Assembly: GCF_003668565.1 (NCBI RefSeq) | Contig: NZ_RCWJ01000002.1 | Span: 248,001 to 312,000 of the forward strand | DNA from: Mycetocola zhadangensis | Lineage (GTDB): Bacteria > Actinomycetota > Actinomycetes > Actinomycetales > Microbacteriaceae | DNA: 64,000 nt | Reading direction: 5' to 3' | In this document: one piece after another, positions 5,672 to 11,134 of the stretch | How positions within the stretch are numbered: position 1 is the stretch's first letter | Layout: each line of letters begins with the position of its first letter | Translations under genes and position numbers: made by a program | The notes under the pieces: model-generated | What the model saw: only the letters and a program-made list of their open reading frames with translations | Database searches by the model: none | What the model was told of the DNA's origin: nothing

Positions 5672-5976
5672 TTCTGTTCAACTCGAGTCGATCGCGAACC
5701 CTGTCGGCGGCCCTTGAATGGAGATGGGGCGGCGTTAGTGCGCTGAGCAATTCCGTGGGGAGCAAGTCGACCAGTTGGACAGGGTGATCACGCCGCGCAA
5801 CCGAACCGCCATGTCGGCGCCTTAGCCCTCCGTGGTTTTCAGCCACCAACACGGCGAGATGGCCGATGATGCGGCCCAGTGTGCCCGCCTCCTATCGAAT
5901 GGACCTATTCTTATGCAGGTTGATCATCGTCAATGCGGGATATTTGGGTCAGCACTTGAATCATCAAAGGAGATAA
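5672..5976. other. Gene-free stretch upstream of the defence island
   Basis: About 305 bp without a credible gene. Composition falls to less GC near 5890-5976, ahead of the DUF262 gene. No convincing repeat, att-like duplication or terminator was seen. The only clear element is the ribosome site AAAGGAG at 5966-5972 serving the gene at 5977. Confidence 0.5.
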
Positions 5977-7140
5977 ATGAGCAGTGGTGAGTTCTTGAAC
6001 TCTGACGACGCGACGGATTCGGCTGTCGACGATGAGACTGAAGCCGACGATCTAGGTCTATTCGAGACGGCAGCGTCCAGTTTGCCGTATTTCGGGGCAG
6101 ACTTTGACGTTGCAGGCCTTGTCCGGCGTCTTGAAGACGAGGACATCCTTGTTCCCCGTTTTGACCCGGACGAGTCCGAAGATCTGACAATTGAAGGTTT
6201 CCAACGCCAGCGTGTATGGACGGCGCCGCGCATGGAGAAATTTATCGAATCCCTCCTTTTGGGCTGGCCAGTTCCGAGTATCTTCCTGGTCGTCGAGCCC
6301 GATGGACGTTATCTCGTCTTGGATGGGCAACAGCGGCTCACCACTTTGCAGAATTTTTACAGCGGCACTCATCTGGACGGGCGTCCTTTCGTTCTTACCG
6401 AAGTCGCTGAGCATCTTCAAAATGCGACTTACGCCACTCTCTCCAAGGAAAGCCAACGGCGCTTAAATAACACGTTCATCCAGGCCGTGGTAATCGAGCC
6501 TGCTGGCGAGGATGGACGGGATGCGGTTTACCGCTTATTCGGCCGACTCAACAGTGGAGGAGTTTCACTTACGGCGCAGGAGATTCGAGTGGCGCTTTAT
6601 CGTGGCCCTTTAGTCGAGTTCATCCGCGATTTGAACCACGACCCATCATGGCGGCACCTCTTCGGGGCGCCCCACAAGAAGTTGAAGGACCACGAGCTAA
6701 TACTGCGCGCCCTTTCTATGTCTGACGTGATTGGAAAAGTAGCGGAGCGGTGGGAGGATGACGACCTGCGATTGACGGCGTACAAGCCGCCGATGGCGCA
6801 GTTCCTGAACCATTTCCTTGAGACTCATGGTGATCTAGCTAGTTTGGCCCCCAATGTAGCCGAGGCCTTCGGCGCTAGTTGTCGACTTCTGGTCGATGCT
6901 GGCGGTCGCGATGGACTCAAATTCGCTGGGCGTCTCAACGCGGCTCACATCGATGCGTTGTTAGGTGCGCTGATCTCCGCCCATTTGAATGGCAACGCAG
7001 TCACCGCCACGCAAGTCAAGACGGCGGTCGCGGCGTTGAGGAATGACCCACAGTACGTGGACTGGGTGTCGCGCAGCACGTCTCACCGTGACAGCGTGTT
7101 CGGGAGGCTGCGTACCGCCTACGAATCGTTGAAGGTCTAA
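5977..7140 (+). CDS. DUF262 domain protein (GmrS-like, ParB/sulfiredoxin fold), likely defence
   Basis: The 387-residue protein has an acidic N-terminus and then the DUF262 core: FQRQRVWTAPRMEKFIESLL near residues 74-93, PSIFLVV, and D116-G-Q-Q-R120-LTTL, the signature that binds nucleotide in GmrSD-type enzymes. The C-terminal DUF1524/HNH nuclease half of GmrSD proteins is absent; the last 200 residues are alpha-helical without known motifs. The next gene, one base downstream, encodes a HEPN-type RNase candidate, so the nuclease may be supplied in trans. DUF262 proteins are widespread in anti-phage islands, and the R-M genes that follow support that role. It is less GC-rich than its neighbours outside the island. 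The ribosome site is AAAGGAG, four bases from the ATG. Confidence 0.88.
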   Translation: MSSGEFLNSDDATDSAVDDETEADDLGLFETAASSLPYFGADFDVAGLVRRLEDEDILVPRFDPDESEDLTIEGFQRQRVWTAPRMEKFIESLLLGWPVPSIFLVVEPDGRYLVLDGQQRLTTLQNFYSGTHLDGRPFVLTEVAEHLQNATYATLSKESQRRLNNTFIQAVVIEPAGEDGRDAVYRLFGRLNSGGVSLTAQEIRVALYRGPLVEFIRDLNHDPSWRHLFGAPHKKLKDHELILRALSMSDVIGKVAERWEDDDLRLTAYKPPMAQFLNHFLETHGDLASLAPNVAEAFGASCRLLVDAGGRDGLKFAGRLNAAHIDALLGALISAHLNGNAVTATQVKTAVAALRNDPQYVDWVSRSTSHRDSVFGRLRTAYESLKV

Positions 7141-7141
7141 A

Positions 7142-7681
7142 GTGTCCGCGACCACTATCGCGCACAAGGACGCTTTCGCACTATGGTCCCGGCTTCAATC
7201 CGAATTCGACAGATACCACGCTGCTATTTCATTCATCCCAACCAACCAGCTCAAACTGCAAGACGACCTACGACGCTATCTATGCCTGCGTTGCGCGGGT
7301 TTCTTAGAGAAGCTCGTTCACGAATGCGTTACCCAATACTTGGAGACCAAGGCTGGCGGTCCCGGACTCGAGTTCGCCAGGTCGTTTTTTTCGAAGGCTC
7401 CGAACTTGAACTCGGAGGCTTTTGTCAAACTGATGGGTAGGTTCGGCGAAGACCATGCCGCTCGTTTTGAGGAATTCTTAACCAAGCCGCTGCGAGATAG
7501 TCTCAATGACCTTTCGTCTGTGCGGAATGCGATCGCGCACGGCGCGGTCACGGGCGGTCAGAAGCTTGACCCAGAGAGGTATAGAAAGCTGTGCGAAGCC
7601 GTCTACGTTTGGATGACAAGTGAACTGCTTTCGCCGCCAGCTGTATCGACAGTCTTTCCGGCGGGGTCGCTAAAAACGTGA
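7142..7681 (+). CDS. HEPN-domain RNase-like protein, MAE_28990/MAE_18760 type
   Basis: A 179-residue, mostly helical protein. R128-N-A-I-A-H133 is the canonical HEPN Rx4-6H catalytic motif, with the expected Asn after Arg. SFIPTNQLKLQDDLRRYLCLR (22-51 region) and FLEKLVHECV match the early helices of the MAE_28990/RiboL-PSP group. Such HEPN proteins cleave RNA, often as abortive-infection effectors. The GTG start at 7142 is one base after the stop of the DUF262 gene, so both are co-translated. No antitoxin-like third gene follows; 137 bp separate it from the methyltransferase. Function is inferred from family and context. Confidence 0.82.
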   Translation: MSATTIAHKDAFALWSRLQSEFDRYHAAISFIPTNQLKLQDDLRRYLCLRCAGFLEKLVHECVTQYLETKAGGPGLEFARSFFSKAPNLNSEAFVKLMGRFGEDHAARFEEFLTKPLRDSLNDLSSVRNAIAHGAVTGGQKLDPERYRKLCEAVYVWMTSELLSPPAVSTVFPAGSLKT

Positions 7682-7818: not shown

Positions 7819-8805
7819 ATGAGCTCAAATCAACTTTCCGCGATCGAGATTTGCGCTGGCGCTGGCGGCCAATCATCCGGTTTGGAGTTGGCCGGATTCG
7901 GGCATGAGCTGGCCCTTGAGATCGACGTGGACGCCGCGCAGACTCTTCGACGGAACCGCCCGAAATGGAACGTTGTAACCGACGACGTTCGCAACCTCAA
8001 TGGCACGGATTATCGTGGCATAGATCTTTTGGCCGGTGGTGTACCGTGCCCTCCGTTCAGCTTGGCTGGTAAACAACTGGGTGCGGACGACGAGAGGGAT
8101 CTGTTTCCTGAGGCTCTCCGATTGGTTCGAGAGGCGAAGCCCAAAGCCGTAATGCTCGAGAATGTGAAGGGGCTCGCCTCGGCGCGCTTTGCGCCGTATC
8201 GCGCCCAGATCCTTGATGAGCTTGAGCACCTGGGTTATGAGTCGAGCTGGCAGCTTCTGTTCTCGTCCGAGTTCGGCGTGCCGCAGTTGAGACCGCGGTT
8301 CATCTTGGTCGCACTCAAGCGTTCCAAAATGAAAAAGTTTGAATGGCCGCGCCCCGTGACCGCAATGTCGACTGTTGGCGACGTGCTCAAACCGCTAATG
8401 GGGGCGAACGGTTGGAGTGGAACCGAGCGGTGGGCGCAAAACGCCAATGGGATCGCTCCAACAGTTGTTGGTGGATCGAAGAAGCATGGCGGTGCAGATC
8501 TAGGGCCGACTCGTGCGAAAGCCGCATGGCTCGCTCTCGGTGTCGATGGTAAGGGCATCGTGGACGAAGCTCCAACAGTCGACATGCCGGAGACGCATAT
8601 CCCACGCCTCACAAACCCGATGGTCGCCAGAATCCAGGGATTCGAGCCCGACTGGCAATTTGAGGGTCGTAAGACTTCGGTATATCGCCAAATCGGAAAC
8701 GCATTCCCCCCTCCGGTGGCTTGCGGAGTCGGAGCTGCTATAGCCGCTGCGCTCGGCTCGAAACAGGCGGCTACGGAACCGGCCATTCTTCGCGCGGCTG
8801 GGTAG
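7819..8805 (+). CDS. C5-cytosine DNA methyltransferase of a type II R-M system
   Basis: A 328-residue m5C methyltransferase with the motifs in order: I (EICAGAGGQSSGLELAGF, AdoMet binding), IV (GGVPCPPFS, catalytic C77), VI (E114-N-V), VIII (QLRPR at 156-160), and X (IGNAFPPPVA near the end). The target-recognition region between VIII and IX is about 110 residues, compatible with one short site. TAGGCT at 7807-7812, six bases before the ATG, suggests a leaderless transcript. It is convergent with the NaeI-like nuclease gene 14 bp downstream and so is its likely protective partner. If the pair behaves like NaeI the target would be GCCGGC (inference). Confidence 0.93.
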   Translation: MSSNQLSAIEICAGAGGQSSGLELAGFGHELALEIDVDAAQTLRRNRPKWNVVTDDVRNLNGTDYRGIDLLAGGVPCPPFSLAGKQLGADDERDLFPEALRLVREAKPKAVMLENVKGLASARFAPYRAQILDELEHLGYESSWQLLFSSEFGVPQLRPRFILVALKRSKMKKFEWPRPVTAMSTVGDVLKPLMGANGWSGTERWAQNANGIAPTVVGGSKKHGGADLGPTRAKAAWLALGVDGKGIVDEAPTVDMPETHIPRLTNPMVARIQGFEPDWQFEGRKTSVYRQIGNAFPPPVACGVGAAIAAALGSKQAATEPAILRAAG

Positions 8806-8819
8806 TCGAGTTAACGAAC

Positions 8820-9761
8820 TTAGGCTTTGTTGCTCAACATCGTAAGCGTTGGGGCGGGCACCTCGATTAGTTCCGAGGGCAGGGCAGCTCTCCACCAGGC
8901 GCCATCAAGCATCACAGAGTTGCGGTCATCACGCGTAGCCGGGACAACTCGAACGCTAACGAGTTCACCTGGTTCCGGGATTGTGATATTCAGGGCCCGC
9001 GCGACAGCCACTTGCGCCGCGTAGTCCCCTCCTAGCACTAGGTAGCCCTCCGGTTGCAGTTTCTCGCGCGCACCCCCATTGGCGCGGACTCTCTTCATGA
9101 AGTCATCTTGTTGCGCCACTGTCGCGATGATAGAGCGCGACAGGCGACGGTTAATCGCAACGCGAAAAAGTTCGTTGATCCGCTGTTGCCCGCTTGAGGA
9201 AGCAAATATGCGCTTGACGTCGGCTGGTGACAGCTGAGCCAAAACATTCGGTTGCATCGGCGCGTTACGATGCAACCAGGTGACGTTGCTACGGCCCACC
9301 GAGTTGAGGCCGGTCTTCTTGTCGCGATTCTCGCTTAGTCTCCGGTTGGCAAGCGTCGCCCGGACTACACCCAGGCTCCATTGCGACTGGAGGTCGTCCG
9401 CTTGGGCCACGAGGATCAGCTGCTCGAAGCTTTCAGGCGGCAGCATCCACGCGCCCGTATGGGAATACTTGCAGTCAACCTCGTGACCCGCGATCCGAAA
9501 ATCGAGCACGTCCCCGTCGACAAACTCGAACTCTCGTTGGAGGTTGATTTCTATCAGAGTTCCGAAGTGGGTCTTCTCTGTTTTGAAGAGTTGATCCACC
9601 TTGAATCGACCCGTTCTTTGCCCGTCATAAAGCTGGTCGAAGGTTCGACGAAATACCTTGGCGGCCCGAGTGCCGTCTGGGTCCAGTCGCTTCATTTCCG
9701 CGACTACTGCGGTGAGGGCGTGGTCGTTCTCGGGGGCGCCCGGGTAGTCGAATAAGGTCAT
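8820..9761 (-). CDS. NaeI-like type II restriction endonuclease
   Basis: A 313-residue protein colinear with NaeI (about 317 residues). TFDQLYDGQR (40-49), KTEKTHFGTLIEIN (60-73), VDCK (95-98) and ATVAQQDDFMKRV match it closely. The catalytic set is intact: E70, D87, D96 and K98. The C-terminal half is the CAP-like second DNA-binding (topo) domain. NaeI is a type IIE enzyme that must bind two GCCGGC sites. Leu44 occupies the position that is lysine in DNA ligase active sites, as in NaeI. The ATG at 9761 is chosen by NaeI length and by TATTCT at 9773-9768 placed for a leaderless message; the 75-codon open extension upstream is not conserved with NaeI. It faces the methyltransferase gene tail to tail. 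Confidence 0.93.
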   Translation of the reverse strand: MTLFDYPGAPENDHALTAVVAEMKRLDPDGTRAAKVFRRTFDQLYDGQRTGRFKVDQLFKTEKTHFGTLIEINLQREFEFVDGDVLDFRIAGHEVDCKYSHTGAWMLPPESFEQLILVAQADDLQSQWSLGVVRATLANRRLSENRDKKTGLNSVGRSNVTWLHRNAPMQPNVLAQLSPADVKRIFASSSGQQRINELFRVAINRRLSRSIIATVAQQDDFMKRVRANGGAREKLQPEGYLVLGGDYAAQVAVARALNITIPEPGELVSVRVVPATRDDRNSVMLDGAWWRAALPSELIEVPAPTLTMLSNKA

Positions 9762-10138
9762 GAGATCAGAATAGGGAACTGTAGACCTGGCGGTCGCAGC
9801 TTGGGGAAGCAGGCGCCTACTACGCCGGTCGATCGCTGCCATGGCATGGATGGTCGTTGTCGCGGCCTCACTACGCGACTCACTTTTCACAACCGGAGAA
9901 CCTTCCACTCGGCCGATTCGAGCGTGAGCGCGCTCAGCGGTTGCATCTACATCCCGCACACTGGGGCTGCTGTTGCGTCTGCTCAATCGGTAGCGTCATG
10001 AATGACGACGAAACAGGGGAAGATGTCAGACGAATTGCGCAAGCGCCGGTATTCCCATGCCGACTCAGCTCCTGAAGTATCAAGAGTGCCTATGCTCCAT
10101 GCCGACGGTCTCCACGATCGTGTGAGCGTTTTCGACTG
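9762..10138. other. Intergenic stretch between the divergent nuclease genes
   Basis: About 377 bp between the NaeI-like gene (leftward) and the HNH gene (rightward). The minus strand stays open in the frame of the restriction gene up to 9986, but nothing in that extension looks conserved. The one element I can support is TATTCT (complement of 9768-9773), seven bases ahead of the restriction start. I saw no C-protein box or controller gene. Confidence 0.45.
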
Positions 10139-11134
10139 ATGCTTGAATTGCGAGATTACTTGCAGCTTTCCCGTTCTGCGGCGGAGGCTCAGTGGCGGGA
10201 GGTGCTCCAACGATCTTCTGTTCCCGCCGGTGCCCGCCAGGTCGATTTCGCACCAATCGAAACGCTGTTGTGCTTCGGACTTGGTCTGATCGGGCATCGA
10301 AGTAAACGCGGGAACATCAACATCAGCGAACGGGACCCGGTCGCACTGAAACTTGCGAGCTTGGTGAAGCGGACTCCTGCCAGCCTCGCGGCTAAGCTCG
10401 CCAATTTGGACGGACGTCGGCCGAATTCCGCCCGACACGAGCGCGCGCTGTGGGTAGCCCTGACGAACGATCTGTTTCATTTTGGTCATCTCTATGCGAC
10501 TGTCATCGACGCGGCGCGCCTCGTCGGTATCGATGAGAATCAGTTGCCAGACTTCCTTGATCTTCCAGACACGCCTTTGCACGCAGTTGTGGAGGCCGAT
10601 CGCATTTCAACCGATGAGTTGAGGGACTCGATTGAGGATGAGATACGCGACTGGATGAACCTGAATCCCGGCGTGGATACCGTGGAAACCGAACGGGCGA
10701 TGTTGGGCAGCGCACGTGTGGGCCAGCAGCAATTTGCGCGGAAGGTTCTGTCGAACGCCGGTTTCGCGTGTGTCTTTTGCGGGCTCAGCTTCAAAGCAAT
10801 GGGCCTGCCCTCCGCGCGGATGCTGGTCGCTAGCCACATAAAGCCCTGGAAAAACAGTATCGGCTCAGAGCGGATCGATCCCTTGAACGGGCTTGCGGCT
10901 TGTCCTACGCATGATGCGGCATTCGACGCTTTCTTGATCACAGTCTTGCCAGACCTCTCAGTTGTGGTGACAAGGGAATTGAAAAAAGCGATCGCTGGCG
11001 ATGCTGCCATTGAGAGAAATTTCGGTCAGGAGGGCCTCGTCCGATCGTTGCGAATCCGGGCTCGTGAGCTGGCGCCAGGCGAAAGGTATTTATCGTGGCA
11101 TCGAAAGATAAGTCTGGGGCGTGAGGTTGCGTAG
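10139..11134 (+). CDS. HNH endonuclease with C-terminal nuclease domain
   Basis: A 331-residue protein. Residues 1-185 are helical and unrecognised. A linker with TERAMLGSARVGQQQFARKVL (185-204) leads into an HNH domain: C211-x2-C214, SHIKPW (H233), DPLNG (N250), CPTHDAAFD (C255, H258). The GQxxFRxxVL-CxxC-ASHIKPW-NG-LxxxxHxxFD order is that of HNH_2-type restriction or defence nucleases; all catalytic residues are present. The N-terminal part would give target recognition. It follows the NaeI-like R-M pair and overlaps the next (membrane protein) gene by 14 bp. It may be a stand-alone modification-dependent nuclease or work with that membrane partner. Confidence 0.85.
   Translation: MLELRDYLQLSRSAAEAQWREVLQRSSVPAGARQVDFAPIETLLCFGLGLIGHRSKRGNINISERDPVALKLASLVKRTPASLAAKLANLDGRRPNSARHERALWVALTNDLFHFGHLYATVIDAARLVGIDENQLPDFLDLPDTPLHAVVEADRISTDELRDSIEDEIRDWMNLNPGVDTVETERAMLGSARVGQQQFARKVLSNAGFACVFCGLSFKAMGLPSARMLVASHIKPWKNSIGSERIDPLNGLAACPTHDAAFDAFLITVLPDLSVVVTRELKKAIAGDAAIERNFGQEGLVRSLRIRARELAPGERYLSWHRKISLGREVA

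Follow-up and report, generated by a model that had tools for sequence, protein, structure and literature searches.

The window, the whole stretch of 64,000 nucleotides of Mycetocola zhadangensis DNA that was analysed, carries near its beginning two adjacent genes on the forward strand, here called A and B. Gene A (5977-7140, ATG start, 387 aa) encodes a short DUF262 protein (GmrSD_N, ParB/Srx-fold NTPase-like), a putative sensor or regulator, and is preceded by AAAGGAG at 5966-5972, as read directly from the sequence. Gene B (7142-7681, GTG start, 179 aa) encodes a HEPN protein of the RiboL-PSP type (PF18735), a putative RNase. An earlier note on this DNA had placed the two genes one base apart, and this is correct: the TAA stop codon of A occupies 7138-7140, B starts at 7142, and a GAAGG lies at 7131-7135. 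The pair is followed by a NaeI-type restriction-modification (R-M) system, made of a cytosine-5 (C5) DNA methyltransferase, M (7819-8805, forward strand; PF00145, 226 bits), and the restriction endonuclease, R (8820-9986, reverse strand; PF09126, 362 bits), the latter delimited as the longest open frame, with an uncertain start codon. Between positions 5700 and 8000 no promoter-like site was detected and the candidate terminators did not rise above shuffled sequences; nothing in Rfam matched between 4000 and 14000.

A further gene, encoding an HNH endonuclease-like protein (10139-11134, forward strand; PF13391, 39 bits; PADLOC HNH, 1.2e-28), lies in the same low-GC island, and its membership of the module is uncertain. 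A phmmer search (E 1e-4) of the other five loci in the NaeI-linked clade described below gave no homologue of it. The same protein also matches phosphorothioated-DNA-binding restriction endonucleases, although at 45.7 bits it stays below their cut-off of 180.

The GC content of the island (6-12 kb) is 56-59%; elsewhere in the first 16 kb it is 62-66%. In a congener (L250, 3878-12655), the same slot, corresponding to about 5.1-12.3 kb of the window, holds a HATPase-Z1-DUF4420-AIPR-C5 methyltransferase cluster between conserved flanking genes; in another (L249), the flanking genes are about 3.2 kb apart (versus 7.8 kb). As a different defence-type cluster occupies the slot in a congener, the slot looks like a defence hotspot, which supports the defence context that the earlier note had read from the R-M neighbourhood. 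The genome of the window contains a second DUF262-HEPN pair (L248, 5215-14966; C1, about 648.5-668 kb), carried by an element with a serine recombinase that is located between two parts of dprA. This element also shows a weak P22-coat-like match, below the cut-off.

Protein A matches PF03235 (GmrSD_N) with 94.9 bits over residues 70-208, and no DUF1524 or HNH model of Pfam matches A or B at E ≤ 1. The DGQQR motif (D116-R120; 6322-6336, forward strand), a putative nucleotide pocket, is invariant, together with many other residues, among 81 aligned A proteins (that of the window included, L103 left out); in more distant relatives its third residue varies. The earlier description of a DUF262 protein with DGQQR and without DUF1524/HNH is thus accurate. 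Its wording that A lacks its nuclease half, in the sense of a truncated GmrSD, was rejected. The matches to two short-DUF262 models of PADLOC, NsnA (4.2e-50, 169 bits, model positions 70-379 of 385) and PD-T4-2_A (7e-33, positions 50-360 of 363), extend through to the C-terminal ends of the models, so that A looks complete for its class. Judged from these profile matches, A is probably a complete short-DUF262 protein and not a GmrSD minus its nuclease.

The C-terminal half of A is conserved in the alignment and is confidently predicted by AlphaFold to be helical (mean pLDDT of the whole model, 89.4). A Foldseek search with this model gave BrxU (7p9k) as the best match (E 1.9e-4), followed by ParB/Noc proteins; as all TM-scores are low, only the DUF262 part is clearly common to A and these matches. 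A search of solved structures by sequence also found BrxU 7p9k (1.1e-8), along with other DUF262 entries. The PHROGs families matched by A have no known function, and none matches B; neither protein is matched by an NCBIfam model.

Protein B matches PF18735 (HEPN_RiboL-PSP) with 45.4 bits, against a curated cut-off of 28.4. The HEPN Rx4H active-site motif R128-N-A-I-A-H133 (7523-7540, forward strand), which the earlier note had reported as intact, is indeed so, and its R128 and H133 do not vary in an alignment of 76 B proteins. That alignment, which includes the window and omits the unusually long L052 and the duplicate L103, has a mean column identity of 26%; G53 is the only other invariant residue, and E56 and G134 are nearly invariant. 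The structural model of B is all-helical (pLDDT 92.4). Its top Foldseek matches are HEPN toxins, all of them weak (best E 0.21, nothing at E ≤ 0.001), and the B profile found no meaningful match among solved structures. As these searches gave nothing strong, the HEPN assignment relies on Pfam, the motif and the weak structural matches. B is a HEPN protein alone, without a fused ABC-ATPase, and its adjacent partner is a DUF262 protein, not the MNT nucleotidyltransferase by which HEPN-MNT pairs are recognised.

The earlier note had proposed to look for conserved DUF262-HEPN neighbourhoods in other genomes, whose absence would have told against a module. Such neighbourhoods proved to be common: a HEPN gene lies immediately downstream of A in 77 of the 81 retained A relatives. 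In 76 of these 77 pairs, the gap between the genes is -20 to +17 nt, a 4-nt overlap being the commonest arrangement (26 pairs), with the limit that the start of B was set as the in-frame start nearest to the A stop, which biases the gaps towards zero. The 81 loci were gathered mainly from the side of A. They come from a scan of species genomes with the A alignment, of which the best 80 of 155 confirmed loci fed the set, and from plasmids, order and class genomes and the window's own genome. Two of them, L070 and L103, have identical A proteins. The window and its copies (L001, L003, L004), second copies of counted genomes (L036, L039, L054), and partial or broken A genes (L104, L105, L107, L108) were left out, as were A relatives that did not reach E 1e-40 or 330 aa; L105, L107 and L108 do carry a HEPN gene. 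Among the four retained loci without HEPN, A is followed by a transposase-like sequence in L067 and by a HEPN-like start severed by the end of the locus in L102 (both read by eye), the contig ends after A in L076, and no HEPN was seen downstream of A in L097.

The association is also seen from the side of B. In 248 order genomes, PF18735 has 12 matches, in 11 genomes (two of the matches from the genome of the window itself, one of these below the curated cut-off), and ten of the 12 directly follow a PD-T4-2_A-type match of the same strand, on its 3' side. The A and B distances correlate (r 0.84 for 73 pairs; maximum 0.09 in 1000 permutations), which is supportive of a partnership and not proof of contact, as shared ancestry contributes. 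A-B relatives are spread over several phyla with adjacency and order conserved, and some are carried on plasmids and mobile elements.

The partner of the DUF262 protein is not always of this type. Ten fetched loci, a subset of those with a strong A match and no PF18735 match, were inspected. The downstream protein has an R-x4-H motif in seven of the ten, and at least a weak Pfam HEPN match in five of these seven; the partner in L024 has the motif and no Pfam match, and that in L031, which also has the motif, was found with a profile of MAE_28990-type partners. In the loci L025, L027 and L028, the gene after A encodes an ABC-type ATPase with DUF3696. NsnB is matched by this ATPase in L025 (1e-112) and L027 (5e-101), and the A protein of L025 scores 454 bits with NsnA. 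The Nsn names (a DUF262 protein NsnA and an ATPase NsnB) presumably designate Menshen, which fits the NsnA-NsnB pair of L025. With HEPN in some loci and an ATPase in others, related DUF262 proteins are thus paired with at least two kinds of partners. The HEPN partner of L013 (3819-4490) weakly matches the C-terminal part of a PD-Lambda-5_A model (E 0.0012), a hint that PD-Lambda-5_A may be a fusion of ParB and HEPN.

The pairing itself is not new. The earlier note had suspected that it might already stand in HEPN surveys, and the 2013 survey, in the portion available, lists a RiboL-PSP-HEPN "operon with ParB" (PMC3710099). According to the accessible text of a review, PD-T4-2 consists of DUF262 and a PF18735 HEPN (PMC10952713); it protects E. 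coli from T4, and its deletion raises T4 plaquing (PMC9519451, as far as that text goes). The window resembles PD-T4-2 in having a DUF262 gene and a PF18735-type HEPN gene, adjacent, co-directional and in the same order (the PD-T4-2 order being taken from its A/B names), and A matches PD-T4-2_A by profile comparison. It differs in that A scores higher with NsnA, that a NaeI R-M system lies alongside, and that B has no match to PADLOC PD-T4-2_B at E ≤ 1 (the HMMER filters drop most matches above about 0.1). That model is matched weakly by the partners in L007 and L010 and by two of ten other family members. A is an NsnA-type DUF262 protein as in Menshen, where the partner, as in L025 and L027, is the ATPase NsnB instead of a HEPN protein. 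Membership of Menshen, and of PD-T4-2 in the strict sense, was rejected on the partner models NsnB and PD-T4-2_B. With GmrSD, BrxU and SspE, the window shares DUF262 and DGQQR, BrxU being the best Foldseek match; these are DUF262-DUF1524 restriction enzymes, whereas neither A nor B matches DUF1524/HNH and a HEPN protein encoded by its own gene is the putative effector.

With moderate confidence, we consider the pair to be a two-gene anti-phage module of the abortive-infection type, related to PD-T4-2. A would contribute a nucleotide pocket of the ParB/Srx type together with a C-terminal domain made of helices, and B an intact HEPN ribonuclease subunit, probably dimeric, with one Rx4H per subunit. 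The two proteins would be co-produced through coupled translation, and A would bind B and keep it silent. Upon infection, A would meet a cue, which may be DNA that is foreign or modified, a product of the phage or a disturbance of the R-M system. Binding or hydrolysis of NTP at the DGQQR of A would then rearrange the A-B complex, by analogy with the DUF262 relative SspE, which acts by 'recognize-hydrolyze-activate' (PMC13251355, in the text available), and with BrxU, whose effector domain acts only after nucleotide binding and hydrolysis (PMC8565348, likewise in part). The released B would cut RNA, and growth would stop before phage release. We infer complex formation, silencing, the trigger, RNase activity and growth arrest; nucleotide sensing by A gating the RNase B is plausible by this analogy. 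In the literature consulted on DUF262-HEPN systems such as PD-T4-2, part of it available only in excerpt, no description of a mechanism was found.

Members of the NaeI-linked lineage may take their cue from the state of the R-M system, by analogy with PrrC and PrrI. Here the pair would watch the NaeI R-M system as a second line of defence, to be released once a phage has inhibited or overwhelmed that system. This reading narrows the favoured explanation by naming the trigger, and we regard it as tentative and rather unlikely. In its favour, the six NaeI-linked A proteins form a single clade with a support of 100/100, and all six lie beside NaeI R-M in five gene arrangements: A B M R(-) in the window, A B R M(-) in Kocuria polaris (L032), R(-) M A B on plasmid pROB02 of Rhodococcus opacus (L009), M R(-) A B in Leekyejoonella (L033) and Nocardioides (L100), and M R A B in L127, which was located from the NaeI side. 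On the A tree (n=83), the NaeI label needs two changes, owing to the distant L120, compared with a mean of 6.8 for shuffled labels, and none of 500 shuffles was as low as two. In our sample, the lineage of the window pair is confined to NaeI R-M loci.

On the NaeI tree (n=33), for which the bootstrap has not settled, the seven linked rows need six changes, at least four of them forced by starred branches, and shuffled labels give a mean of 6.5, with 227 of 500 shuffles as low as six. The NaeI partners of the clade are thus scattered, and the identity tables of A and B agree with each other and disagree with that of R. A single frozen NaeI-A-B cassette is therefore a poor explanation, roughly so given the state of the bootstrap, and it is also disfavoured by the varying gene order. 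The comparison of L100 with L124 adds to this picture. Their NaeI genes are nearly identical and the stretch from M to NaeI is 84% identical; after NaeI, L100 has the A-B pair, whereas L124 has another two-gene unit in that slot, after which similarity resumes. This unit (L124, 10684-12887) encodes a PD-Lambda-5_A-like (ParB-like) protein (1.4e-24) and a 340-aa protein without a PADLOC or Pfam match. The swap indicates that the A-B pair is an optional component at NaeI loci. A precedent is in print as well, as the available part of the 2013 survey describes PrrC-PrrI and makes a general proposal for R-M-linked HEPN proteins (PMC3710099).

Other observations weigh against such a guard. The likeness to PrrC/PrrI is that a HEPN RNase, putative in the window, is genetically tied to an R-M system; however, PrrC is an ABC-ATPase-HEPN fusion guarding a type Ic system, whereas in the window the HEPN partner is a DUF262 protein and the system is of type II. 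In most relatives, the fetched flanks, some of which are short, contain no NaeI: it is found in only five of the 81 retained A loci, all of them clade relatives, and a C5 methyltransferase was detected in the flanks of only four of the 76 loci without NaeI, so that the kind as a whole does not need this R-M type. Conversely, NaeI is present in 26 of 394 class genomes and three of 296 phylum genomes (both samples include the genome of the window), and among 27 other NaeI loci fetched, 25 of which have a C5 methyltransferase homologue, the A-HEPN pair occurs at only two. One is L127, of the clade; the other is L120, whose A is distant and lies about 1.8 kb from the methyltransferase. Among plasmid records with NaeI, the pair is found in one of three, that of R. 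opacus. Recombination among NaeI islands is possible and could move the pair without functional linkage. No NaeI was found in viral contigs with search patterns made from a single-sequence query. A link between the DUF262-HEPN pair and NaeI was not found in the literature, in which subscription papers were thinly covered; PMC7159879, in the part available, names NaeI in another context.

An additional gene encoding 276-281 aa is located between M and NaeI in L033 (1679-2521), L100 (6580-7425) and L127 (10353-11183). In L100 its product gives no more than a weak HNH match (E 0.042); the equivalent position in R. opacus is taken by an annotated HNH gene.

A second alternative, which we hold to be decidedly improbable, is that A reads the C5 methylation that the linked methyltransferase imposes on DNA and that unmethylated foreign DNA would activate the HEPN RNase, replacing or joining a DNase. 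It draws on a related branch with HEPN_MAE_28990-type partners, found in viral contigs (L168-L247, the best 80 of 121 loci). Both A and HEPN were retained in 73 of these loci, which form 46 clusters at 80% identity. Among the best 80 loci so clustered, a C5 methyltransferase lies within 100 bp of the pair in 38 of the 46 clusters, on the opposite strand in 29 and on the same strand in nine, and usually convergent with the HEPN gene. Six clusters lack one at this distance, but two of the six carry one farther off (about 415 and 516 bp); the last two clusters are cut off too early for a judgement. Operons of methylase, ParB and MAE_28990 had already been noted (PMC3710099, in the portion available). 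These HEPN_MAE_28990 + ParB + DNA methylase operons (Anantharaman 2013) resemble the window in the DUF262-HEPN order and the linked C5 methyltransferase; they differ in the HEPN subfamily and, in viral contigs, in a solo methyltransferase in place of NaeI R-M. In addition, M is found in all six loci of the NaeI clade, and the DUF262 enzymes GmrSD (PMC10952713) and BrxU (PMC8565348) act on modified cytosines, according to the accessible parts of these sources.

Against this reading, five of the six seed proteins of the viral-contig scan were themselves methyltransferase-linked, so that the scan was not blind to that link. In the window's own branch, a C5 methyltransferase is nearby in only the four of 76 loci given above, outside the NaeI clade, and none accompanies window-type pairs in any of five viral-contig clusters. 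The methyltransferase of the window already serves NaeI, DNA binding by A is putative, and the methyltransferases of phages may instead shield them against host restriction.

It is also improbable, and slightly harder to credit, that the genes form a plain toxin-antitoxin pair kept by addiction, A being only an antitoxin that senses no infection. The small operon of two overlapping or nearly overlapping genes, the toxin-like HEPN partner and the carriage on plasmids and mobile elements would all suit such a pair. However, the invariant NTP-type motif and other invariant residues of A would seem to exceed the needs of an antitoxin, the kin of A act in defence (PMC10952713 and PMC9519451, both available in part), and in Menshen-type loci an ATPase gene comes after the A relative. 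That a decayed GmrSD gene and an unrelated HEPN gene are neighbours by chance, as the missing DUF1524 of A might suggest, is ruled out for practical purposes by the adjacency, gene order and active-site residues conserved across several phyla.

Under the favoured reading of an anti-phage DUF262-HEPN module, what appears new at the level of sequence is a lineage seen only at NaeI R-M loci in the sample, with a B protein that has no PD-T4-2_B match. The restriction to a single type II R-M system suggests a candidate trigger: methylation or cleavage by the NaeI system, or the loss of NaeI. A bolder and unlikely extension would be an R-M system with an RNA-cutting arm, in which A reads R-M status or the C5 methylation made by the linked methyltransferase, and unmarked DNA or a crippled NaeI activates the HEPN RNase and shuts down the cell. 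If this were true, a single principle would appear in two forms, as the NaeI-confined lineage and as the triads of DUF262, HEPN and C5 methyltransferase in viral contigs. The triads raise the broader possibility that methylation-controlled RNases may serve as restriction effectors.
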